Source: Branchiostoma floridae
Lineage: Eukaryota; Chordata; Leptocardii; Amphioxiformes; Branchiostomatidae
DNA: 64,000 nucleotides
Assembly (NCBI RefSeq): GCF_000003815.2
Contig: NC_049988.1
Location: 20,094,679 to 20,158,678 of the forward strand
Direction of reading: 5' to 3'
The notes under the pieces are model-generated. The model saw only the letters and a program-made list of their open reading frames with translations, ran no database searches and was not told the origin of the DNA. A program made the position numbers and the translations under genes. Position 1 is the stretch's first letter. Each line of letters starts with the position of its first letter. Shown here piece after piece: positions 5,301-61,145 of the stretch.

Positions 5301-6200
5301 ACACCTGTTTAAACTTCACTACATCATTGCAGAGAAAACCACTCCTTCATTGAGACAAAAGAGTATAAAAAGATAACGAATTTCTTTAGATATTACTAAA
5401 GTAGAGTTCCGCGACCTCATACCTTCGCCAAATGACGTAACGGATACATAAACTAGACCACTGATAGTTTGAAACGTTCGCGTTGGTTATAAACAAGGTT
5501 CAGTTTATGGTCTTCTCTACCCTAAATAGCGCAATTTCTTCAAAGGATAAAAGTCTTATCTTAGCAACGCAGGCTATATAAATGAATAAGAAATTGCTTT
5601 CTTATGACTTTAACAAAAATGATTCGTCTTGGTACACAGATAGCACCACTACGAAACTCAAGTTCAAAGAGCAGTCGATCTTTATTCAAGATAAGCTGAA
5701 ACTGCAACATTATCAGAACTTCTTAAGATTCTGATTCATATTTCGTCTTACAAATCGTTAAAGTTGATGGCTTCATAATCATGTTTCTAGCATTTTACCA
5801 ACAGGAAGAATAAACTTTTGTTACCGATTCAAGATGATACAAAGTTTGATACAAAACTATTCTCTTTTAACTGAAGAATTCCAATAGATTGTGCTGCTAT
5901 TGAATGTCATAGATCATGTTTTAATGCAGGGTATGAGATGATCATAAAAGCATATTCTTACATGTCTTGACAAACTTACTAAATTGGAGCTAGGTGTATA
6001 TGCACTAATGAGAAATTGAATAACATTTGCATCAAGAAATTCGAAAATACGCATGTCCTTATTTAATTAATCGTGCTGTGTGCATTTGCGCAATCTAAAC
6101 TGATTGTAGGCTGCTAGATTGTGGGCCTATAGTATGCTCTTTGATTAAAGTTAACATATCACAGCTGTCTCAATTCGTCGGAGACGTAGAAACTTTTCCC
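5301..6200. other. 3' flank of gene B; no other feature
   Basis: AT-rich, non-coding. On the minus strand an AATAAA signal is present near 5690, about 500 bases past the gene B stop, and could serve as its polyadenylation signal. Nothing else is recognised. Confidence 0.4.
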
Positions 6201-9200
6201 TTAGCTGAGTGTGTATCCCGTCTGGATGGCCCCCTTGCCGTTGCACCTAGAAAGGCATGATAGACCACACATTGCAATGATTGTGACTTTGACTTTGACG
6301 ATTGTATTCAGACCTGGTATAGGATAGAATATAGATCACTGAGTTCTGAATTGAAATAAAGTTAAGAAAGCATTCATAAACGGGCTTGGCATTGTACATA
6401 CATTCCTTATTGCCGTTTAACGTCAACTTTAGAAGCTAGACGTATTACTTGTAAAGTATTGAAACAGCCCCAATTCTACTTACCAGTCGCACTTTGTGCA
6501 GAAGAAGCACCGCTGCGTCCGCCTGGCTCGGTGGGGCACCTCGGCCCAGCCTCCCGTGTGCACCGCGCCCCGGCCCCGGCACTGCGCGCACAGCGCCCGA
6601 CCCACGGGCATCACCCCCTTCCCCTCACACGCACAGCAGTCCTCGCACAGGAGACAGCGCACCCTGCCGGTTTGGGTGTGCGCTGCAGGCGAGCCGTGCA
6701 GGAAGCCTTTTCCCTCGCAGCGGTGGCAGATGTTGGAAGCAATGGGTATGATGCCGTTACCTACAAAAAAGACACAAGAACTAGGCGTCACTGTCTACGT
6801 GTAAAAAAACAACAACAAAAGAGCTCACTTCTTTAGCATGACATTGATCTCATGGTGGAGTAATAATCTACCAGGGTCTGCCGTAACATCACTAAGTGAA
6901 ATCAGAGATCGGACAATCATATGTGTGAGCACAAATTGTTCTACGACTACACAGCCACCAATCTTTTCAGAGCTTTACTAAAATTTATTTGGCAACAATT
7001 TCACAAAGTTTGGCAAATTTTCCACTTTTTCATGTTGCCATAACAACTGTTTATACTGGAAATTCGTTGTTCAATGTCAGACCCAGGTGAGCTCATGTTA
7101 CATCTACATTGGCACAACCAGGTGAGCTCATGTTACATCTACAAACATTGGTACACCCAGGTGAGCTCATGTTACATCTACAAACATTGGCACACCCAGG
7201 TGAGCTCATGTTACATCTACAAACATTGGTACACCCAGGTGAGCTCATGTTACATCTACAAACATTGGCACACCCAGGTGAGCTTATGTTACATCTACAA
7301 ACATTGGCACACCCAGGTGAGCTCATGTTACATCTACAAACATTGTCACACCCAGCTGAGCTCATGTTACATCTAAAAACATTGGCACACCCAGCTGAGC
7401 TCAAGTTACATCTAAAAACATTGGCACACCCAGGTGAGCTCATGTTACATCTACAAACATTGTCACAACCAGGTGAGCTCATGTTACATCTACAAACATT
7501 GGCACACCCAGGTGAGCTCATGTTACATCTACAAACATTGGCACACCGAGGTGAGCTCATGTTACATCTACGAACATTGGCACACCCAGGTGAGCTCATG
7601 TTACATCTACAAACATTGGAACAACCAGGTGAGCTCATGTTACATCTACAAACATTTGAACAACCAGGTGAGCTCATGTTACATCTACAAACATTGGCAC
7701 ACCCTGGTGAGCTCATGTTACATCTACAAACATTGGCACACCCAGGTGAGCTCATGTAACATCTACAAACATTGGCACACCAAGGTGAGCTCATGTTACA
7801 TCTACAAACATTGTCACACCCAGCTGAGCTCATGTTACACCTACAAACATTGGCACACCCAGCTGAGCTCATGTTACATCTACATTGTCACAACCAGGTG
7901 AGCTCATGTTACACCTGCCCAACCAACGTTAACTCTACTCTTGTCTTGCCTTTGCAGGTGGTACAGCGGCGGCAGAAGTGGCAGGGGAGCTCACGTGAGG
8001 GTGCCCAGTGCCACGTGTCGTCACTGTGCGTGATGCCGATTCCGTCACACCTGTACAACAACAACGATATTGCCGTAGATGTTAAAGGCCATGAGAAAAC
8101 GGTCGAGCAAGTGGATGGAATTTTGAAACGGTCAGACGTTTCATGTAGCATGCGTTGTCTTTCGTCAGTGGCTGAATGGAAATCTATAGAGGTATCAATT
8201 TTAGCCCAAACTCTAAATCGTTGAAGGAAATAAACTTGATATTTAACAATAGATAATACTAATAGACATTATCATTTATCTACAAGAATTGGAACAGTTG
8301 AATAAATGCATTACGTAAGTAATCAATGTCTATAGTTATGCCTTGATTTGATTTTCTTTCAATACCAATTCTGATGCTTAAGGTTAACATTACAAGCGCT
8401 TTAAGTAATAAATTACCGGTCAAAGGTGATCAGAAGTCTATATCGTCCTCCGTCCCACACACGAAGACGTTCAATCGTAACGCGTACCTGTAGCAGTACT
8501 TGTACTGTGTCGGGTCATAAAGTTGTGACTCCGAGTCGGAGTCCGAGTCGGAATCTTGGTCAGAAATCTCGTCTTCCCAGCCAAGCAGATCTCTCAAGCT
8601 CGTAGCAGACGGCGTCTCCATGGGAACGCTGGTCTCCATGGAAACTTCTGATGACGCAGAACTTGGGGCGTAGGTACTGCCCGCGTGCGAAGACTGGCTG
8701 GGAAACACCGTGGGCCTGTTAGTTGCGAAGTATCCGCTAGAGGGCATGGTTGAGTAGCCTTGTTGCCCTGACTTGGAGGAGGCGCGAATTCCACATGTAA
8801 CATCCGAATCGACGTCCCAGACTTTCGCATCCAACTTGAAGTCGCTCAAACCGGCTTCCGTGGAGCTTCCGAAGGTGACGTCACTCGGATGTAAGGACAT
8901 GGGGAGTGTTTGGCTGGAGGAAACCTGACTGAACGGCGCCATGTTGGAGGGAGCTGGGCAAAATGGCGCCATGTTGGCTGAAGCTGGGCCATATTGCGCC
9001 ATGTTGGATGAAGCCTGGACAAACGGTGCCATGTTGGAACCGTCGACACTTTCAGACGAAGACCGGTGACGGAAACTCCGGAACTTCTTGCGGATGACGT
9101 CCTCAATAGAGCGCAGGTTGATGAGGGAGCGGCGACGGGAGGTACCGGTGGAACCCAGGGTGGAGGAAGATGGCGTCTTCTGGCTCACGGAGGTTTTCGA

Positions 9201-10007
9201 ACTCGACCTTGACGGGAGGTCGCTGTGGGGGATGGTGACCCCGTACCTGTGACTCAAGACGTTCTCCATGGACTGAAGATTAATGGGTGAAGGACGGGAG
9301 CCGAGGGTGGAATAAGACGGAGATTCTTGAGATATTGACGGCCTTGGAGCATCTTCTGCGACCTTGTATCTTTGAGTCTCCACAGATTGAAGGTCAACAG
9401 GTGAGAGACGGGGCCCGTTGTATCTTTGAGTCTCCACAGATTGAAGGTCAACAGGTGAGAGACGGGGCCCGAGGGTGGAGTAAGACGGGGCTTCTCGGCG
9501 GGTCCTGTCATGAGACACCGGCAGCCATGCACTTGACCTTGTAGCCTCTTCTGCGCCCCCATACCTTTGATTTATGATGTTCTCCACAGATTGAAGGTCA
9601 ACTGGCGAGGGACGGGTACCAAGGGTGGAATAAGACGGAGATTCTTCGCTCCATTCTTGAGATACATTTGACCTTAACGTGTCCTCTACGCTGGTCTGTC
9701 CACCACCCGTGGCCCCTTGCGTCGTGACGTCATCCACAGGACGAGAGTTGAGCCCTGACCTGTGACCTACAAACGACCCCAGCTGATCAGGAGAAACTTC
9801 ATACCGCCGATCCCGGCCTGACCTTGACGAGGGAGCGGCTTCGTCGTGACTTTGACCTTCTCGGAGTTTTCGATCTAAGATGTCCTCCACCGACTGCAGG
9901 TTGACGGCCGGATGGTGTTCCCAGAACGACCCCAGAGTAGAGGACGACGGGAATTCTTGGCGACGACGGTCTCCTTTCCGTGACCTTGGGCTGGTTCTAG
10001 ACGCCAT
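6201..10007 (-). CDS. gene B: cysteine-rich protein with three CxxCxGxG modules (647 aa, four exons)
   Basis: Predicted exons are 10007-8488, 8050-7950, 6760-6484 and 6246-6201 (phases 2, 1, 2; 1944 nt in all). Residues 1-330 are Ser/Pro-rich and carry five to six diverged copies of a motif like STLGSRPSPVDLQSVE. Residues around 325-370 hold four copies of SNMAPF-x4, and an acidic (DS)n run lies near 490. The C-terminal 505-647 has three modules starting at C505, C552 and C598. Each is CxxCxGxG-xxH, about 20 residues, then CxxCxxCxxCxGxG. The exon joins restore the motifs exactly (CYR|CDGIG, CKG|NGI, CDW|CNGKG), which is strong support. Six CxxCxGxG motifs recall the DnaJ zinc domain, which has four, so zinc binding and protein-protein contact are inferred. 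I do not know the family. Intron 2 uses a GC donor. The start has a good Kozak context, ACAAAATGG. Confidence 0.8.
7078..7914. repeat. 39-bp minisatellite, 22 units, in intron 2 of gene B
   Basis: A 39-bp unit (GGTGAGCTCATGTTACATCT with ACAAACATTGGCACACCCA) repeats 22 times with only single-base differences; the first and last units are about 4 bp shorter. Fifteen units carry CAGGTG and four carry CAGCTG, both E-box forms. Since 39 is a multiple of three and the unit lacks stops in most frames, long spurious ORFs occur on both strands. The array lies wholly inside the GC-AG intron 2 (7949-6761). Confidence 0.95.
8051..8487 (-). other. intron 1 of gene B
   Basis: Donor CAG|GTACGC at 8487 and acceptor TTGTACAG at 8051. 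If this intron is retained, translation stops at 8430 and gives a 525-residue form that lacks the zinc-type domain. Confidence 0.65.
9360..9472. repeat. 54-bp exact tandem duplication in gene B exon 1
   Basis: Two adjacent identical 54-bp copies encode an 18-residue unit ending in SPVDLQSVETQRY. It keeps the frame and adds one more copy of the N-terminal motif. The lack of differences suggests a recent event. Confidence 0.9.
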
Positions 10008-10830: not shown

Positions 10831-12226
10831 GTGAATGCTGCAATTGTATCGACTGGTACACAGTGACACAGACCCACCGAGCCTCAGGGGTTCTAAACAG
10901 AACTTGTCCAACAAGATGCAACAATTATGCTATTCAGACCCGACCACTTCGATGAACGGGGGTATTCTTTTTCCCTGTATTTATTTATATAAAGACTAAT
11001 TGCCTTGTTCAGATTTTGATTCATAGTTGACGTGATTAGCCTTATCCTATACGTTGCTGAGGTTTCATTGCTTTTCAATTAGAAACTAGTCGAATAGCCT
11101 AAAACATTTGCATTAGTTTACGCCTCCCTTTCTTGCCTTTGGCATTTAAAAGGCGCAGCGGTTGTAATATTATCTGGGTCGGGTAGCGCTGGGTTTCAGG
11201 TAGGAGAGTGTTTGTTTTTTCTCGGAGTTTTACAAACATCCAATACTAGTTACTGGAAGGTGGTAGTGTACATAAGTTATGATCAGTGACCATCATTTGC
11301 GTTTCTCTAACAGTGATTTTAAGCCAGCGACCAAAATGTGTATGATATTTGATTGGCCCAACAGGGCCATGTGTATTCTTACATTGATAGGGTTGTTAAA
11401 ATAGTTCTGTATCTAAAAGGAAAACTGGGCATTCGGGAATATTAAATAAATGGACTTTGGTTTCAGACTGCCATACGTCCTAGTCCACCGTTTCCATGTC
11501 GGACGGAGTTGTTAAACAGAAGTTCCACGTCGTCAGAACTTCTAAACAAGCCATTTACCTTGACATGTTAACTGTGCATTTAAGCTTTCAGCCTCGGGCG
11601 GGTCATTGAGCAGGAACAGCCATGTTCCACGGGACGGTGATGGCACTGCGACCACTCTGCGACCTACACTGGTTTTGTGTAACCCCTGTCTTCGTAATAG
11701 AAATATCACGCAAAATGTAAAAATATGATCGAAAAGACAAAAGAATACACAAAGCGTTGAACATATTCAAATATTTGCCTATGGAATTCGTTGATCGCCC
11801 TGTTCTGAGAAGTTTATGTCGTGGCGAGGTTACCGCCCTTGTCGAAGGCACCAGTTTATGCAGAAAGGTACAATGGTGTGGAAGGCGCTGTGAGGAGTTA
11901 ATAACTAAATAAATAGTGGGGCGTTGACACACATGAGGCGCACGCGTGACAAGGAGGTGTTCGGCCATCATAGGCTTGACTTCACCGGAACTGGTTTAAA
12001 AGGAACGTACTCAGCTCACTTGGAGTCAGTCAGTGAAAAGTCTCTGAACATACCCCTGGCTCCGTTGTCGTTGTCGCCCGAATTTACATTGACCACGTTT
12101 TCATAAGCATCAAAAATTGCATGCCACTATTTTCGGATCCCTTCCTTCAACCGCAATGATTTCAGAATAGTGATATTCCCTTGTCGTCTACAGACACCTG
12201 AGACTGTCAGCATTCTAGAGACTACC
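10831..12226. other. intergenic; decayed MITE and possible gene C promoter
   Basis: About 11640-11790 resembles the interior of the GGCGATCGC MITE family (shared phrases around ACACAAAGCGTTGAAC and AAAATGTAAAA). A TTTAAAAGG box at 11994-12002, and a TCTACAG at 12187-12193 that could be a 5'UTR acceptor, lie upstream of gene C and are possible but unproven promoter parts. Confidence 0.35.
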
Positions 12227-14854
12227 ATGGCCGACTTGAAGACCGTCCTGTGTGTCATTGGTGCCCTGGGTGAGTAACGCGGGTTCACCTTTATCCGCAA
12301 GGTAACCTATATCCGCTGTATCTAAAAGCATGCTACATTGTATTTTGGGACCGGGGTAGTTAAACTTGCTGACACTTTTGGTAATTCTCGGGTGTCTTAA
12401 AATGGCTGCAATTTTCATCTGGTCCGCAGGGGGTCTCTTCGTCGTCACCTGTAACGGCTCTGTGGACGTCCCGTGTGACTCCCTCCTGTCGGGCGGTGTT
12501 CCTCTGGAGCAGTGTTTGGGGGAATATGTGTGTCACAACGGGACGTGTGCGTGAGTAAATAAACAACTCCAACTCCTCATTCCTTTTCCTGTCGTTCCTT
12601 CCTTCTTTCGTTCGTTCATTCATTCGTCCCTTCCTTTCTCCTTCCTCCCTTTCCCTTCTGTCATTTCTTCCTCACTCCAATCTTCCCCCTTGCTTCCCTC
12701 CTCCCATCCCCCTCCCTCCCTCCCTCCCTCCCTCCTTCCTTCCTTCCTTCCTTCCTCCTTTCCTTCCTTCCTTCCTTCCTTCCTTCCTTCCTTCCTTCCT
12801 TCCTTCCTTCCTTCCTTCCTTCCTTCCTTCCTTCCTTCCTTCCTTCCTTCCTTCCTTCCTTCCTTCCTTCCCTCCCTCCCTCCCACCTTTCCTCCCTCCT
12901 CCCATCCCTTCTTTCTTCCCTTCTTCTTTCTTTCTTTTTGTTCACAAATGCAAATCATATTTATCATATAATCCTCCCTGGGTGGCCATGTATAAAGTTA
13001 AGCGGTTTTCTCCCCTATTCCCCAGTGAGCGTATGGAGAAATTGATCGCCTGCGTCATGCAGGTTACGACGGACCTGCTCACGCGGTGCTTTCCCGGGCT
13101 GGTAGGTTTGATAATCTGTCATGAAATTTGACAAAATTTGGCTTCATCTGCATTCAAAGAAAGCTGGGATTTTAACAAATACCACCTTCTGAAATATAGT
13201 AATACCTCCATACAGGACCTCCAACAACACGAACTATTATTCAAACATTGTTACTTTTACCAAATGTAGTGGCCGCCAAATGAAGAGTTTGTGTCCTTGT
13301 GTGCTTGTCTGGATATGAGTGTTGGATATTAACTAGAGTGTCATTAGAGTGGTAGGAAGTGATTGGAAATTGGCGTCACCGCAAAGGTCATGACCTGGAA
13401 GTAGAGTTCAAAAGTGGTAGAACTAGCCATTAATCAGATAGGTAGACTGACCCGGCCATGGGGTCAAAGAAAGAGGCTACAACGTATTAGTATATAATTC
13501 ACGGCAGGTGCATTGTATTGTCTTGGTCCTTTCTTTTAACGAATTATATATCGAATGGTTCTCTGCAGTTTTCAATATCCTAGAGTTCGTAGAGTAACAA
13601 GAAGTGATCGCTGGATACATCTCATGTTGATAAAACCTCATTGGTTAATCTGAGTAATTCTTTGAATGATATTAAAGTGAAGTAAATTCAAATAAAACAG
13701 AAACTCTCAATATATCACGAAGAAATGGCACATTACTACGAACTTGTTGTTGTTTGAGTGACATTACTTGCTTCCATGACGTCCTAAGCACGTAAACACA
13801 TTTTCTATCTACTGGCTCTCTCAGGAACTGCCACAAAGCACCTTCACCGACTTAATCCAGTCTGTCAGCTTTCTGAACACCACCTTCTGCAGCGGACAGT
13901 ACTGGAACATCAGCAGTTACGTGGAAAGCCAGCTGAACACCGGAGGGAAATGCACCGAGCGCTTTCACCAGGAGTACGCGGGGTGCTCCGAGACCTTCTT
14001 GCAGAAGTTTCTCGCAGGAACTCCTTCAGCCGACCTACTCTGTAGGTAAGAAACACTATGATGTCTTAGAGACGAAGAAACATCTTTTAAACAACTTTTT
14101 CAACAAGCCTTTTCTTGGTCGTTTCTTTCTCTTTATTCTTTACCCCAAATCCCCTACCAATTGTGACGATCTTCTATGGCTTCATCCTAAGCTACTTTCT
14201 TTCGTTCTTGATATTCTTCTCACCTATCTACACAGAATCTTAGTTCAACCGTCATGTTGTATATTTGCTGGTCAGTATCCACAAAAATGTGACTTAAGAT
14301 AGCAATATAAATCCATATTAACTTAACCGGCCATTTCAAGGTTAATCTAATTCATTCAACATGGCGGTCAACGCCTGTCAACTGTCAACGCCTATGTCAT
14401 GGTCACATGACTGCAAAAAGATGATGTCATAATGACGTAACTGTGAGCCGCGTCATTTTCCCATATTAGGGAATACCAGACGTCTCTGCAGTGCATCACG
14501 CAGTTGGCCCAGAGCGAATGCAGTTTCAACCAATCAGAACAGGCCATACTGTTCGCGGGCACCCAAAGCAACCCCTTCTGCCAATGCAACGCCATGACAA
14601 CAGAAGGCCAGACTACCAAGTCGACTTCATCATCCACCCGAGTCTTTCCTTTTACGCCGTTAATGATTTTTAGTCTGTTTGTTTGTTTGTTTTGCATATC
14701 CGGTAAAACACCTTACGGCGTAACACACCAGGTTTGTACAGAACAGTACAAGCTGCATATACGGACAGATTTATTTGATCCACTCACACAGGGAAGGGCC
14801 CCTTCTCTTTTCGATAAGTGCAGTGCGTACTCTAAGAGAAGGGACCTTCATTGA
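12227..14854 (+). CDS. gene C: secreted cysteine-rich protein (281 aa, five exons)
   Basis: Exons are 12227-12269, 12430-12550, 13026-13101, 13825-14045 and 14470-14854. All introns are GT-AG and the phases close exactly to 846 nt. Residues 1-22 form a signal peptide (ADLKTVLCVIGALGGLFVV). The mature part has about 14 cysteines and five N-glycosylation sequons (N23, N51, N98, N108, N174). A Ser/Thr-rich stretch (202-210) precedes a hydrophobic run VFPFTPLMIFSLFVCLFCIS (212-231), which looks like a GPI-anchor tail or a membrane segment. The 50 residues after it are encoded by SINE sequence, which is odd for a GPI signal. I do not recognise the family. The product is inferred to be extracellular, possibly membrane-tethered. 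Confidence 0.75.
12690..12940. repeat. (CCTT)n microsatellite in intron 2 of gene C
   Basis: About 250 bases of CTTC/CCTT repeats with CCCT interruptions at the ends. It lies within the intron between exons 2 and 3. The long Lys/Gly/Arg/Glu or Pro/Ser ORFs across it are simple-repeat artefacts. Confidence 0.95.
14690..14850 (+). mobile_element. SINE fragment exonised in gene C exon 5
   Basis: TACAAGCTGCATATACGGAC and the following GATCCACTCACACAGGGAAG match the dispersed SINE body seen at 10500-10570 and, antisense, at 34975-35090. It encodes the last 50 residues and the stop of gene C as predicted. Confidence 0.6.
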
Positions 14855-26924: not shown

Positions 26925-28175
26925 GTCAAATTAAATTACATATGTATATATAGTGAGTTACAAATGACATGATGTTTACAACAGACAGAAGCGCTTAACA
27001 CACAGTGCGTCGACCTGCCACTCAAATTAAATTGCATATGTATATATAGTGAGTTACAAAAGATATGCTGTTTTATAACAGACAGGATCGCTTAACACAC
27101 AGTGCGTCGACCTGCCATTCAAATTAAATTGCATATGTATATATAGTGAGTTACAAATGACATGCTGTTTTATAACAGACAGCATCGCGTAACACACAGT
27201 GCGTCGACCTGCCATTCAAATTAAATTGCATATGTATATATAGTGAGTTACAAATGACATGTTGTTTTATAAGAGACAGAAGCGTTTAACACACAGTGTG
27301 TCGACCTGCCATTCAAATTAAATTGCATATGTATATATAGTGAGTTACAAATGACATGCTGTTTTATAACAGACAGCATCGCGTAACACACAGTGCGTCG
27401 ACCTGCCATTCAAATTAAATTGCATATGTATATATAGTGAGTTACAAATGAGATGCTGTTTTATAACAGACAGAAGCGCTTAACACACAGTGCGTCAATC
27501 AGACATTAAATTGCATATGTATATATAGTGAGTTACAAAAGATATACTGTTTTATAACAGACAGAAGCGCTTAACACACAGTGCGTCGACCTGCCACTCA
27601 AATTAAATTGCATATGTATATATAGTGAGTTACAAATTACATGCTGTTTTATAACAGACAGAAGCTCTTAACACACAGTGTGTCGACCTGCCGTTCAAAT
27701 TAAATTACATATGTATATATAGTGAGTTACAAATGACATGCTGTTTTATAACAGACAGAAGCACTTAACACACAGTGAATCGACCTGCCATTAAAATTAA
27801 ATTGCTTATGTATATATAGTGAGTTACAAATGACATGCTGTTTTATAACAGACAGAAGCGATATATATATAACCACACAGTGCGTCGACTTGCCATTCAA
27901 ATTAAATTGCATATGTATATATAGTGAGTTACAAAAACATGTGTTTTATAACAGACAGAAGCTCTTAACACACAGTGCGTCGACCTGCCACTCAAATTAA
28001 ATTGCATATGTATATATGGTGAGTTACAAAAGATATACTGTTTTATAACAGACAGAAGCGCTTAACACACACTGCGTCGACCTGCCATTCCAAATTAAAT
28101 TACATATGTATATATAGTGCGTTACAAATGACATGCTGTTTTATAACAGACAGAAGCTCTTAACACACACTGCGT
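26925..28175. repeat. 98-bp satellite, about 13 copies
   Basis: The unit includes TGCATATGTATATATAGTGA, GTTTTATAACAGACAGAAGC and ACACACAGTGCGTCGACCTG. Copies differ by a few percent. One unit (near 27860) has an inserted (AT)n run, one (near 27500) lacks part of the CGACCTGCC segment, and the last copies decay. Each unit carries a TATATATAG box. Confidence 0.95.
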
Positions 28176-29790
28176 CGACAAAACACTTTTTTAAAAATCG
28201 CGTATGTATATGAAAAAATGAATGAATGAAATGTATATACACTACATCGACTCACCATTCCCATCATATTCAAGGAGTCATAGATTTTTTATAGTCATAG
28301 TTGTTCAGAATAAACTTCATGATTACTTTGTTATGTATTGCATCGTGTACAACTATCATGCAATTAAGTGCCTTGATTAATTGCTTCATTACAATCATTT
28401 ATGAGTAAAGGGTGTCTATAGCTCAGTTACGTTTTGGATACCTCCCACTTGCGTTAATTACCCACATCACATATTAATGAGGCAGGTATAAAAGCCACTG
28501 AATCAGAAATAAATTGCATTGCATAGTTCTTTCACTGCCGTTGGATTGAATTATGCTGTTCTTAACAGATTTGGTTGGTTGATCAAATGTTTGTTTGTTT
28601 TTGGGATTGTAAATTGCGTTTATGATTGATTGATTTATTATTTCTTATCTTTGTTCAATAGTTTCGTTGGCTGTCAACTGAACAATAGAAATGTTGTTCG
28701 ATGATTGATGGCGTGATCTCAAAGTGCTTAGGTTGAAAGCTTAATACTCGTCACATAATAAACAAATAAAATTAACACCAAACATAACATACAAACTCAC
28801 TCTTTAAAGCAAGTTGAAAGGGGCACCTAAACAAGGGATATGGAAGTAATTGCTAACATACACAGTAATAATGAAATGATAATATATTGGTACTAATTGA
28901 AGCTAGTCATCGAAGATGAACTGTCCATTTCATCAAGCAGGTGCGTAAAGTAAGGGATTTTGCTATTTCTTCGCACAACGTCTAGAGAAGACGTCTGGCT
29001 GTCTGGTTTGTTGATTACCTGGTTGTTTATTTAATTATTCGTATTTTTGTTATTTAATTGCTCGTCTATTTGTTTGACTGATCGATTGACTGTGAGTTAC
29101 TGTTTTTGTTGACGTAATGTTAACTTCGCAGGAATATAAATTTTCATTGCCATTATGAAATGCAAAGCAGGTTTTTTCCCCCTCTAGTTGGTCGTTTTCG
29201 GTACAAGAGAGGTTGTGTTTTTTTCTACAATTCTATTAGTCTGCATACTCTCTAGAGAAACTGACACATGTTTGCAATTCAATACAATCGTTGCACTCTG
29301 TATTTTTAAATGTATGTCGAAATGTTGTGAACCTTATAATTAGAAGATAACCCCAGTTGGGCTAAAAGGTTTCGTAGTAAATGAAATGAAATACAAAATG
29401 TCTTAAGCTTTTTTCTTCATTTTTACATGACATGAAGATAAATTTCTCAATGGTCCCTTTGGTCCCTTAGATGACATTAGGTATTTACGTGTATTCTATA
29501 TCTACCATGACATCAGACATTGTTACCCATTTAAACGTACACTTTATATCATCAGTGTTTTCTATAATTGCCTTGCTATACTGATGAAGGACATGAGGAC
29601 CTTTCCTCTTTCTTTCTGGTCGAAGCCTGGCGCTTTTTCGTCAGTAGAACATAAAACGCGGTACGCTTTAGCCAAGCATGCACCATAATCTTCTAGATAC
29701 ATCTGTTGGGTTCTGCCTGCAACTCTCCTAAACACGGGGCAGCGAGCTTCATGTCTCCATCCGAAGTGACGAAAGCAATTCCTAAATACA
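28176..29790. other. intergenic; isolated TATA-like box
   Basis: GGTATAAAAGCC at 28488-28499 would be a good TATA box, but no open exon follows it. The remainder is AT-rich, with TTTG-rich stretches near 28560-28600 and 28990-29080. Confidence 0.4.
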
Positions 29791-57370: not shown

Positions 57371-57835
57371 ATCTTACTGCACTGCGATATGTTGGTGGCG
57401 TCGCTGCGCGCGATCGAAATCAAATTTGCGTGACTCCTGCCTTTAGCAATGCAAAGGAATATCACACGAAACGTACACGTTTGATTGGGAAAGACAATAA
57501 AACACAGACTTCGTCAAAGGCTTAGTTTTTATCGTTGGGATTTTGTTGCGCGTTCTGTCAAATGGCCACGCGCCTTCAATGAGCTACCTCCCGAGTAGCA
57601 TTCACATTCAATAGGACAGAAACAATATTCATCGATCCGGCCTACTTTCGCTCGCGCAGAAGAATTGCTCATTCCTCTCACATCTTTCTTCTGGCGTAAC
57701 CTAGCAACCACCAATAGCGTGCCCTCAACACGCGTCACCTTCTTTATTAGGATATGTTATTTTCTTTTGAAGCGAAAACATTAAATTTCTCAGAAGTAAT
57801 GATTTGTGGGCAGCGTTATTAATTTGAGTGCACCT
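57371..57835. other. 5' flank of the GPCR gene
   Basis: No coding feature. A short GC-rich patch with GCGCGCGATCG lies at 57405-57415. Confidence 0.4.
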
Positions 57836-57843
57836 TATAAATA
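57836..57843 (+). promoter_or_regulatory. TATA box of the GPCR gene
   Basis: TATAAATA lies 60 bases upstream of the GPCR start codon. A start site about 30 bases downstream would leave a 5' UTR of roughly 30 bases. The spacing is right; use is inferred. Confidence 0.55.
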
Positions 57844-57895
57844 TACAGACCAACAAGAGAGGACCCAGTCGCCTGCGAAGATTGTCTCGAGCAAC

Positions 57896-58100
57896 ATGGG
57901 TGACTACAACTCGTCCGGAGGGCCCTGGGCGGCGACCGAGCCCGACGAGCCCGTGACGGCGGCACCGGACTGGGGAGACCCTCCCCTCGGGCCTGAGGCC
58001 ACTGCTGTCCCGATCGTCTTCGCTCTGATCTGCGTGGTGGGCCTGGCGGGGAACCTCCTGGTCATCTACGTGGTCTGGAAGTACGAGAGGATGAAATCTG
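57896..58100 (+). CDS. gene D, first exon: class A neuropeptide-type GPCR
   Basis: The ATG at 57896 (context AACATGG) opens 68 codons plus one base, ending at a G|GTAGGA donor (phase 1). The extracellular N-terminus is acidic and has one N-glycosylation site (NSS, residue 5). From about residue 38 comes TM1, AVPIVFALICVVGLAGNLLV, then IYVVWKYERMKS. The GN-x-LVI motif is the class A TM1 signature (GxxGN). The VP...GLxGNxLVIYVV pattern is closest in feel to kisspeptin, galanin and allatostatin-A type receptors; which one cannot be decided from TM1. Later exons are outside the window or lost in the repeats that follow. Confidence 0.75.
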
Positions 58101-58763
58101 GTAGGATTCTTTTTTTTTTCTTCGTTTCTTTGTTTGTTTGTTGATGTTTTCTCCTAATCGGTAGACGTATCAATGTTTTAAGGACTCCATTCATGTAATC
58201 TTCTGTCTTTAGTTCATTAACATATCAACTCATAGCACGAGAGAATGAAATCTGGTTGGACTCTTTTTTTGTTAATTTCTTCACTTAATGAATGAATGAA
58301 GACCTTTATTGTACAATTTTGCCCAGCCGGGCTAAGTACAGGTCACAACAAGTCAGGATATATACATACATACAAGTGTCACAAATCTAGTCTAACACAA
58401 AAGTTCGGCTTCTTCTCGCTTCTTGGTAATAGTGAAAATATAGGACTGTATGGGTTTCGCTATTGTCGGTTTGTCAAAACGCATGAGAAATCAGAAGACT
58501 CATCAATGGATTCATTTTGAAAGGTCATCTGTATATCATTTCATAGTTAGGGCATAAAACCTGCTCTTCAAAGGTAGTGGATGTTATCTAACCGTTTCCA
58601 ACATCATGTAGAGTCGTTACAAATGTAGGCATATTCTATTACCTGGATTTTAAACCTTCATTCATGTATGTAATCCTGAATCTTTGCTATATTTCGTACG
58701 GCCCTGGTGAGCCCCTTGCTTGTTTGTTCATTTGTTTGTTCATCTTTTTCTCGTAATGGGTAT
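58101..58763. repeat. GPCR intron made of degenerate ~130-bp units
   Basis: TTTGTTTGTT-rich text followed by CGGTAGACGTATCAATGTTT and a TTCATGTAATCT phrase occurs at 58120-58200, and in changed form at 58705-58800 and 58835-58925. At 58233-58260 ACGAGAGAATGAAATCTGGT repeats the GPCR exon end. At 58287-58400 lies an antisense LINE tail (ACCTTTATTGTACAATTTTG). Confidence 0.6.
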
Positions 58764-61145
58764 GCGCATCAATGTTATAAGGATTTCATTCATGTTATCT
58801 TTCGTTAGACCCTCGCGAAGCTTCGTGTTTGTTTGTTTATTTGTTTGTTTAGCTTTTTTTCACATAAGCGGTAGACCTATCAGTGGATTTATCTTATAAG
58901 AACTTCGTTCAAGAAATCTATCGTTAGCATATCAATTCATAGTTAGGGTATAAAACTAGACTCCACCGGACCTTCCTACTGGCGTACGGCGATAGTGAAA
59001 TATTGCAACAACAAAAAATGGCCTGGGAAGTCAGTCCACGCTGAGGTTATTGCGCGGCCAGCCAACTCCTCTGGTAGCAAAACTCCCCTGGCAAATTACT
59101 TTCCCTATAATAGTCAGCGCAGTCAGTGTGGTAGAGACTATGTATGAAACCTACTCTTCAACAGCTCTGCTCAGTGTCACTAACGACAGGCAATGACTGG
59201 TACCTGAAATGTCCGTTTCCAAAATCATATACATGTACAGTTGCTTGAGTCACTGCTGTTTGGCATATCCATATTGGACATATCGTATTATCTAGATGTC
59301 TAACCGCCATCGATGTATGTAGCCTGAATCTTTGCTCAATTTTGTCTATTTTTTACCTTCTCTCTCGTCACCTTAATAAAAACGGCCTTCAGCCCGATTT
59401 GAGCTTCTTATGAATAACTAAATAAACGTTTCTTCTTAAGCCACACCTGTTTGGTGAGGTAGGTACAAACTGCTCAGGCTTATATTCCGCTCAAACAGGG
59501 ATGAACCTTTACTCTTTAAGTGTGGCAGGTTCCTTAAAATGCTTAACGTGTCACTCTAGCTACTCAAGGACGGAATCTCCGGCTTGGCAGCCCATTTGAG
59601 ATGAAATCTTAAAAGCCCCCCGTTAGGGTTAAGTCCCAGTCGCACCTGTGCCCGTCAGGCCTGTAGCCCCGGTTGGACTCCGAAGCCACAAATTTGTCCC
59701 GGTGTGCTAACAGATACCGAAGGGCACTCCTCGGTATTTTTTTCCCGTGGGTTGTTCGCGGCGACTATTTGTCCGGTCCTTACCTCCTCCCTCATGACTT
59801 TATTACCCTTTTAGTGTGGCGGATTCGTTAACCTGCTTGATGTGTGGCTGTATGTAGCTACTCAAGGACGAAATCTGCGGCTTGGCAGCCCATTCGAGAT
59901 GAAATCCCCCAAGCCCCCAATAGCACCTGTGCCCGTCAGGGATATAACCCCGGTTGGGCTTCGAAGCCACCAATATATGTCCCGATGTACTACCAGATAC
60001 CGAAGGGCAACCCTCAGTATTTCTTTCCCGTGGGTAGTTCGCGGCGACTATAAGTCCCAGTCGCACCTGTGCCCATCAGGTATGTAGCCTCGGTTGGACT
60101 TCGAAGCCACCAATATGTCCCGATAGACTGCCGGATACGGAGGGGGGGGGGGGGTTGTACTTCTCAGTGTTCCCCATGGCTTTGGACACATATGGCTGAA
60201 CCCGAGATCATACCACATAGATACAATCAACACTCAGTTACGACAACGTTTACAAGATATATACGTGCAAAATTGGCATTCCTCTATTCGAACCAATTCT
60301 AAACTCTCCTCTCTTTCTACATTGAATAAGCACTACAAGCAAAAAAATTACATTTCAAACATAAAGAGCCTTGACATTCGTAGGGCAATCACACAACTCA
60401 GAATTAGCTGTCACAAATTAAATATAGAAACCGGGAGATTCAAAAAAATCCCTATCGACCAGAGGGTTTGTCCATTCTGTCCAGAGTTAATTGAAGACGA
60501 ATATCACTTTATGATTGTATGTCCCAAATATTCTGAAATACGCAATTCTCTATACAGAAGGTTGTCATTTTATACACAAGGATTTATCTCAATGGACCTG
60601 AAGTGCAAATTCAAATACATCATGACATGTGACAATCCCTGCATGGCAGATATAGGAAAATATATCAAAGAAGGTTTGGATATTAGAAACTCCTCAACTG
60701 ATTGTAAAAGCTTCCAACGATTGTAAGAAGCTTATCCCATACTACAACTCCTGTATTAGTTAGTTAAGCTATAGAACTGTAGTTATGTAGATGCCATACT
60801 TTGTACCTCGTACAATTGTTGTGCAATAAAGTTATACATGTGTAGTTCACGGCGTCTATTTCTTACCGGGTCTCGGGTTCATTTTTTTAGTCCAACTTTA
60901 GTCCAAAATTCCAGGGAGCTGCAATTCAATGTGTCCCACGGGACCACGTAAGAGCAACGCCAGAAAGTGCACACACACAAAAAAACAGCCCTTGAACTGG
61001 CCGGCTGGGTCCCTTTTTTCCAAATCGGACCTAAACCTTACATATAGCCGAACATGGCTAACGGCCTCAAGCCGACCAAGGTTGACATTAGGTCGGGAGC
61101 AATCTTACTAGTCTACTTTTGACTTCCAAACACGCCCTAACCACT
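58764..61145. repeat. tandem segmental duplication, copy 1
   Basis: Runs parallel to 61229-63974 in the same order, starting ATCAATGTTATAAGGATTTC and ending near AACACGCCCTAACCACT. Inner repeats around CGCACCTGTGCCCGTCAGG occur two to three times in each copy. Subtracting inserted elements leaves about 1.72 kb here and 1.73 kb in copy 2. Confidence 0.88.
60176..60840 (+). pseudogene. LINE fragment: ORF2 C-terminus with zinc knuckle
   Basis: The open frame from about 60180 to 60726 reads LRQRLQDIYVQNWH, then RRAITQLRISCHKL, CPFC ... EDEYHF ... CPKYSEIR and ends at SFQRL. The CxxC-x(n)-HxxxxC zf-RVT motif and its position mark the end of a non-LTR reverse-transcriptase ORF. The 3' UTR ends TTTGTACCTCGTACAATTGT then CAATAAAGTTATA. 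It is absent at the matching place in copy 2 (after CAGTGTTCCC near 63640), so it inserted after the duplication. The frame is still open, so the insertion may be young. Confidence 0.8.

Follow-up and report, generated by a model that had tools for sequence, protein, structure and literature searches.

The question raised by this locus is what kind of domain is formed by a cysteine-rich protein tail built on the CxxCxGxG motif. The tail is encoded on the minus strand of a window of 64,000 nucleotides from Branchiostoma floridae (contig NC_049988.1, positions 20,094,679 to 20,158,678). The favoured reading, at a probability of about 0.5, is an intracellular protein of 647 residues in which an N-terminal motif scaffold would be joined to a metal-stabilised tail of three repeats, serving as a binding platform. 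The tail would carry a known zinc motif in unusual form; a link to chaperones is unsupported, and the function proposed for it is an inference. Coordinates below are window positions, and all features of the gene lie on the minus strand.

Spliced translation of the four-exon join 10007-8488, 8050-7950, 6760-6484 and 6246-6201 gave 647 residues, of which the C-terminal 143, from C505, form three modules. Module 1 (6729..8495; residues 505-551, 47 residues) is encoded by the exon pieces 8495-8488, 8050-7950 and 6760-6729. Module 2 (6591..6728; residues 552-597, 46 residues) is uninterrupted, and module 3 (6204..6590; residues 598-647, 50 residues) comprises the pieces 6590-6484 and 6246-6204. 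CxxCxGxG was found six times (residues 505, 536, 552, 582, 598 and 631), CxxCxxCxxC once per module (residues 530, 576 and 625) and CxxCxGxGxxH in 3/3 modules. Within a module, 23, 22 and 25 residues lie between the two CxxCxGxG motifs, and 8 residues lie between the motifs of each of the pairs 536/552 and 582/598. An initial annotation of this DNA had given the same coordinates, joins and residue numbers, which were exact, and the three-module anatomy that it described, with six CxxCxGxG motifs and a CxxCxxCxxC run per module, agreed with these motif positions. Its spacing of about 20 residues between the histidine and the next CxxC was wrong; the gaps counted on the translation were 14, 13 and 16.

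Module-against-module BLOSUM62 scores were 93, 72 and 80, compared with maxima of 61, 59 and 44 in 1000 shuffles per pair. Twelve columns were common to all three aligned modules, comprising six Cys, four Gly and two His. The first His falls at residues 515, 562 and 608. When Cys residues were fixed and the remainder shuffled, a His column common to the three modules, with positions numbered from the first Cys, arose in 0.46% of 100,000 trials. The second His (residues 521, 568 and 617) precedes the CxxCxxCxxC block by 9, 8 and 8 residues by hand count. An alignment gap makes its column look invariant, so it was graded as no more than probable. Conserved sets of four Cys/His ligands, the pattern of a zinc-binding repeat domain, recur along the tail, the second His being displaced in module 3.

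The four-exon coding gene looks real, and its transcription is presumed. Exon 1 (8488..10007; residues 1-506 and two bases of 507; G+C 0.56) encodes a Ser-rich low-complexity scaffold. It begins at the ATG at 10007. This is the earliest in-frame ATG in an open frame of 533 codons, and an in-frame stop lies 7 codons 5′ of it. Intron 1 (8051..8487; 437 bp, GT-AG, phase 2, G+C 0.36) splits motif 505 in the R507 codon and is followed by exon 2 (7950..8050; residues 508-540 plus split codons; G+C 0.63). Intron 2 (6761..7949; 1189 bp, GC-AG, phase 1, G+C 0.43) splits motif 536 in the G541 codon and precedes exon 3 (6484..6760; residues 542-632 plus split codons; G+C 0.68). Intron 3 (6247..6483; 237 bp, GT-AG, phase 2, G+C 0.36) splits motif 631 in the W633 codon. 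Exon 4 (6201..6246; G+C 0.59) supplies the end of module 3 and the stop codon TAA (6203-6201). ATTAAA at 6062..6067 is a possible polyadenylation signal by consensus match only, and a second copy starts at 5925.

The three junctions were compared with all pairs of GT or GC donors up to 60 bases from the modelled donor and AG acceptors within the 4 kb downstream, pairs with an upstream stop being excluded. Pairs giving CxxCxGxG across the junction numbered 2/2395, 8/3713 and 4/3139 at junctions 1, 2 and 3, the modelled pairs included. Several alternative restoring pairs rely on poor splice sites, and the counts are interdependent, the leading CxxC half frequently being in place beforehand. The counts accord with the earlier suggestion that motif-restoring joins are hard to obtain by chance. 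Contiguous six-frame translation of the window contained CxxCxGxG three times, in exon 3 only. Two one-base variants of the joins gave stops after 540 and 589 residues with loss of motifs, and reading through from exon 2 into intron 2 gave a stop 12 codons past CKG. One alternative restoring pair, 8488 to 6246, likewise stays in frame: introns 1 and 3 split CxxCxGxG at the same residue and in the same phase, so joint skipping of exons 2 and 3 would preserve the frame and would give a short one-motif tail (CYRCNGKGAIQTGYTLS).

These results bear on a gene that is degenerate or lineage-specific and without maintained function, or on a mis-joined model. Consistent with such an explanation are the GC donor of intron 2, the presence of tandem repeats in both exon 1 and that intron, and the lack of a credible relative in the collections searched. 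The 533-codon open frame, the three motif-restoring junctions and the 12 invariant columns among diverged modules argue against it, and the collections were viral and prokaryotic besides the animal's own genome, so missing relatives say little. It was considered improbable.

Intron 2 entirely contains a minisatellite (7081..7913, minus strand) with a 39-bp unit in about 21.6 copies. On the gene strand, the acceptor-like TTTGTAG occurs 16 times and GAGCTCACCTG 14 times among 22 units, with the donor-like CAGGTGAGCTC on the opposite strand. The first and last spacings are 35 bp, compared with 39.

The 143-residue tail was compared with domain libraries. PF00684, the central zinc domain of DnaJ / Hsp40 type I proteins, was matched over all 65 profile positions by tail residues 32-101 (expected value (E) 3.7e-5), at 24.3 bits, below the cut-off of 32.7, and was unlisted when the whole 647-residue protein was scanned against Pfam. 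That scan (E ≤10) returned only PF23329 at 0.11 and no J domain, and the DnaJ C-terminal substrate-binding domain was not among the Pfam matches. The NCBIfam anti-TRAP model (RtpA, NF058604) matched the tail at E 1.4e-6 and 28.3 bits (cut-off 65), Pfam Anti-TRAP (PF15777) at 10.9 bits (cut-off 32) and BSD2_CRD (PF25436) at 9.3 bits (cut-off 27). In PHROGs, the Phage anti-termination protein Q-like family (phrog_127) matched tail residues 45-135 weakly, at E 0.006 and without a shuffle control.

Such matches would suit a chaperone domain derived from DnaJ: loss of the J domain would have been followed by duplication of the zinc domain, and the tail would bind unfolded clients or show thiol-disulphide activity in the manner of BSD2/ZnJ2-type proteins. 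Proteins with a DnaJ-like zinc domain and no J domain are described from plants and algae (PMC5818400). Descent from DnaJ was initially favoured, as a first set of five shuffles preserving Cys and Gly was blank in Pfam (5/5 at E ≤1); it was overturned by more shuffles and a filter-free local profile. Ten further Cys/Gly-preserving shuffles gave one match to PF00684, at 9.1e-8, which was better than that of the real tail, leaving 14/15 without a match. Four full shuffles gave no Pfam match. Against a three-sequence profile of solved DnaJ zinc domains, with filters off, the real tail scored 11.7 bits. This score was reached by 0/1000 full shuffles, 0/1000 Cys-only shuffles and 476/1000 Cys/Gly-preserving shuffles. 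Taken alone, the blank Pfam shuffles would still permit a case for kinship, which the filter-free test does not. The demonstrable resemblance to DnaJ is therefore the CxxCxGxG spacing, which can reflect a common mode of holding zinc and gives no evidence of descent. To our knowledge, CxxCxxCxxC blocks and the accompanying His residues are not features of DnaJ, and a DnaJ-derived chaperone domain was considered unlikely.

The likeness to DnaJ comprises CxxCxGxG itself and the 8-residue pair spacing, which resembles that between DnaJ motifs 1 and 2 (8, 8 and 9 in three sequences). DnaJ has four motifs and the tail six, with a CxxC and His added per module, and the studied protein has no detected J domain or DnaJ C-terminal domain. 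Anti-TRAP (RtpA) also has close CxxCxGxG pairs: two such motifs near each other bind zinc, which is required for its assembly and function (PMC2896485). It differs in being bacterial, in its 53 residues and in assembling as trimers. BSD2 and ZnJ2 (PF25436) share a zinc-binding DnaJ-like domain found outside J-domain co-chaperones (PMC5818400), but have four motifs and are plant and algal plastid proteins. The likeness to phrog_127, a viral transcription factor family, is a Cys-rich stretch and probably the Cys/Gly scaffold only. The tail gives the appearance of a remote relative, or look-alike, of the DnaJ zinc region, but the protein is not a DnaJ protein.

Copies were sought in the 513.4 Mb assembly (431 contigs, the window lying in contig C10). 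Six-frame search with the tail (E ≤10) gave four matches, three of which were the gene's own exons. The fourth (contig C4, E 0.008) was rejected as chance; it contains two stops and no CxxCxGxG, and is antisense to a 221-codon frame with membrane-like stretches. Exon 1 (506 residues) matched only itself at E ≤1. The gene is present in one copy at the sensitivity used, the search scoring the best candidates only. PF00684 gave eight matches in the genome, three above cut-off, and the exons of the studied gene were not among them. Five of these loci (L007-L011) read like ordinary DnaJA-type genes, and two (L013 and L014) have no CxxCxGxG on either strand. Locus L012 (contig C8, minus strand, near 1543; 19.9 bits, E 0.45) reads CICCLGEG, then CQAC and CAAC; it is unlike a DnaJA gene and is possibly another protein of the CxxCxGxG type.

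In viral contigs, exon 3 gave 12 pattern matches (0/12 relatives) and the module alignment confirmed 1/297, L006, with 47% identity over 30 residues at an E of 2e-6 relative to candidates only. L006 is a 226-codon viral frame with a single CTTCKGNG stretch and was rejected as a short coincidence. Pattern matches in bacterial and archaeal genomes were confirmed in 0/131 and 0/276 cases. The PDB sequence search with the tail gave no match; that with the module profile gave seven weak short matches (best E 0.24), anti-TRAP and DnaJ among them. An exon 1 match in PDB at 0.07, to a phage tail nozzle, was judged spurious. The literature search found no paper pairing CXXCXGXG with amphioxus and no mention of CXXCXGXGXXH, CXXCXXCXXCXGXG, or five, six or eight CXXCXGXG; the phrase 'three CXXCXGXG' does occur, in two papers. 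With no Pfam or NCBIfam match above cut-off and no credible relative, the family remains unrecognised, as had been noted initially. 'Orphan' here denotes no relative within the collections searched, which says little as these were viral and prokaryotic apart from the animal's own genome.

Residues 1-504 contain 20% Ser and two Cys. Six copies of (V/I)(D/N)L(Q/R)S(V/I/M)E lie at 9078..9944 (residues ~22-310, boundaries by arithmetic), five of which soon follow STLG on inspection of the translation. The repeat scan identified two perfect 54-bp tandem copies, in frame, at 9364..9471, and two of the six LQSVE-type motifs fall in this repeat. A 30-bp in-frame repeat at 8935..9038, in about 3.5 copies, encodes SNMAPF-type decapeptides. 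We infer that these residues are a mostly disordered scaffold. By inspection, the protein start (MASRTSPRSRKGDRR) is hydrophilic and without a hydrophobic signal sequence. An acidic SDQDSDSDSDSES run, presumably of the kind used by the kinase CK2, precedes the domain. Both features count against a secreted or surface disulphide-rich domain, as does the occurrence of CxxCxGxG as a metal knuckle in other proteins. The high Cys content, with nine disulphides possible from the 18 shared Cys, would suit such a domain, which was nevertheless judged highly improbable.

Under the favoured reading, the 143 residues of the tail would form a three-repeat domain stabilised by metal. The CxxCxGxG-x8-CxxCxGxG pairs 536/552 and 582/598, bridging modules, would each hold one zinc as a hairpin of the DnaJ/anti-TRAP type, and motifs 505 and 631 would either pair together or each bind independently. 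The two His of every module, together with its extra CxxC, may make a second zinc site, for six sites in total; the 18 shared Cys and six His provide 24 ligands, which is sufficient for six zinc ions. The N-terminal LQSVE-type motifs would be likely to form short helices for a partner and so gather partners on the tail, which would act as a non-enzymatic binding platform. Zinc, the pairing of sites, the intracellular location and partner binding are all proposals. Zinc binding, as suggested in the initial annotation, is well grounded by the ligand pattern, and the adaptor role suggested with it is plausible. The chaperone-like role offered as its alternative has little support, given that no J or DnaJ C-terminal domain was found and that 476/1000 Cys/Gly-preserving shuffles equalled or exceeded the real tail.

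Several points weigh against the platform reading. Measured from the module start, the second His lies at offsets 17, 17 and 20, and its distance to the next CxxC is 9, 8 and 8, so that its place is not strictly fixed from either side. Intron 2 requires the non-canonical GC donor AAAG|GCAAGA, where introns 1 and 3 begin with GT, and no credible relative was found in this genome or in the viral and prokaryotic collections. The CxxCxxCxxC run would also suit an iron-sulphur cluster, and were each block (530, 576 and 625) to hold a 4Fe-4S cluster on its run of four Cys, spaced by two residues, this would be an iron-sulphur protein. In classical ferredoxins the motif reads CxxCxxCxxxC and a Pro follows, which counts against that explanation, and the conserved His would require another role. 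The last two Cys of each run also belong to CxxCxGxG, a zinc motif in other proteins (PMC5818400, PMC2896485). An iron-sulphur protein was rated very improbable.

The count of six zinc is likewise arithmetic and not a model. In the assay of PMC5818400, the ZnJ2 CxxCxGxG domain bound zinc and a Cys-to-Ser mutant lost it. No more than one zinc per molecule was released from this four-motif protein, which warns against taking six zinc from a ligand count. A pseudo-threefold six-zinc architecture, with cross-module pairs and the first motif paired with the last, independent of DnaJ and specific to an animal lineage, was regarded as doubtful. If six zinc were bound, a DnaJ-like motif would have been reused as a chordate tandem-repeat domain outside chaperones. 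Such reuse would offer a defined test of the repeated independent origin of CxxCxGxG domains, in a gene left blank by the domain libraries searched.

Elsewhere in the window, Cys-containing frame pieces on the plus strand at 12200-14049 (VTCNGSVDVPCDSLLSGGVPLEQCLGEYVCHNGTC, then LNTTFCSGQYWN...CTERFHQEYAGC) are exon-like and divergent from the studied gene. They look like exons of a small, possibly secreted protein, and the two larger pieces gave no Pfam match at E ≤1. A first-exon-like frame at 57803-58144 (plus strand) contains a GLAGNLLVIYV stretch, which we take to be reminiscent of transmembrane helix 1 of rhodopsin-type receptors; in Pfam it gave no seven-transmembrane (7tm) match, the sole match being a weak one to a phage holin at 0.46. 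The 199-codon frame at 60127-60726 (plus strand) had no Pfam match at E ≤1 and contains CPFCPELIEDEYHFMIVCPKY, presumably like the C-terminal tail of a long interspersed nuclear element (LINE) reverse transcriptase. A satellite-like array with a 97-bp unit in 12.9 copies occupies 26926-28179.
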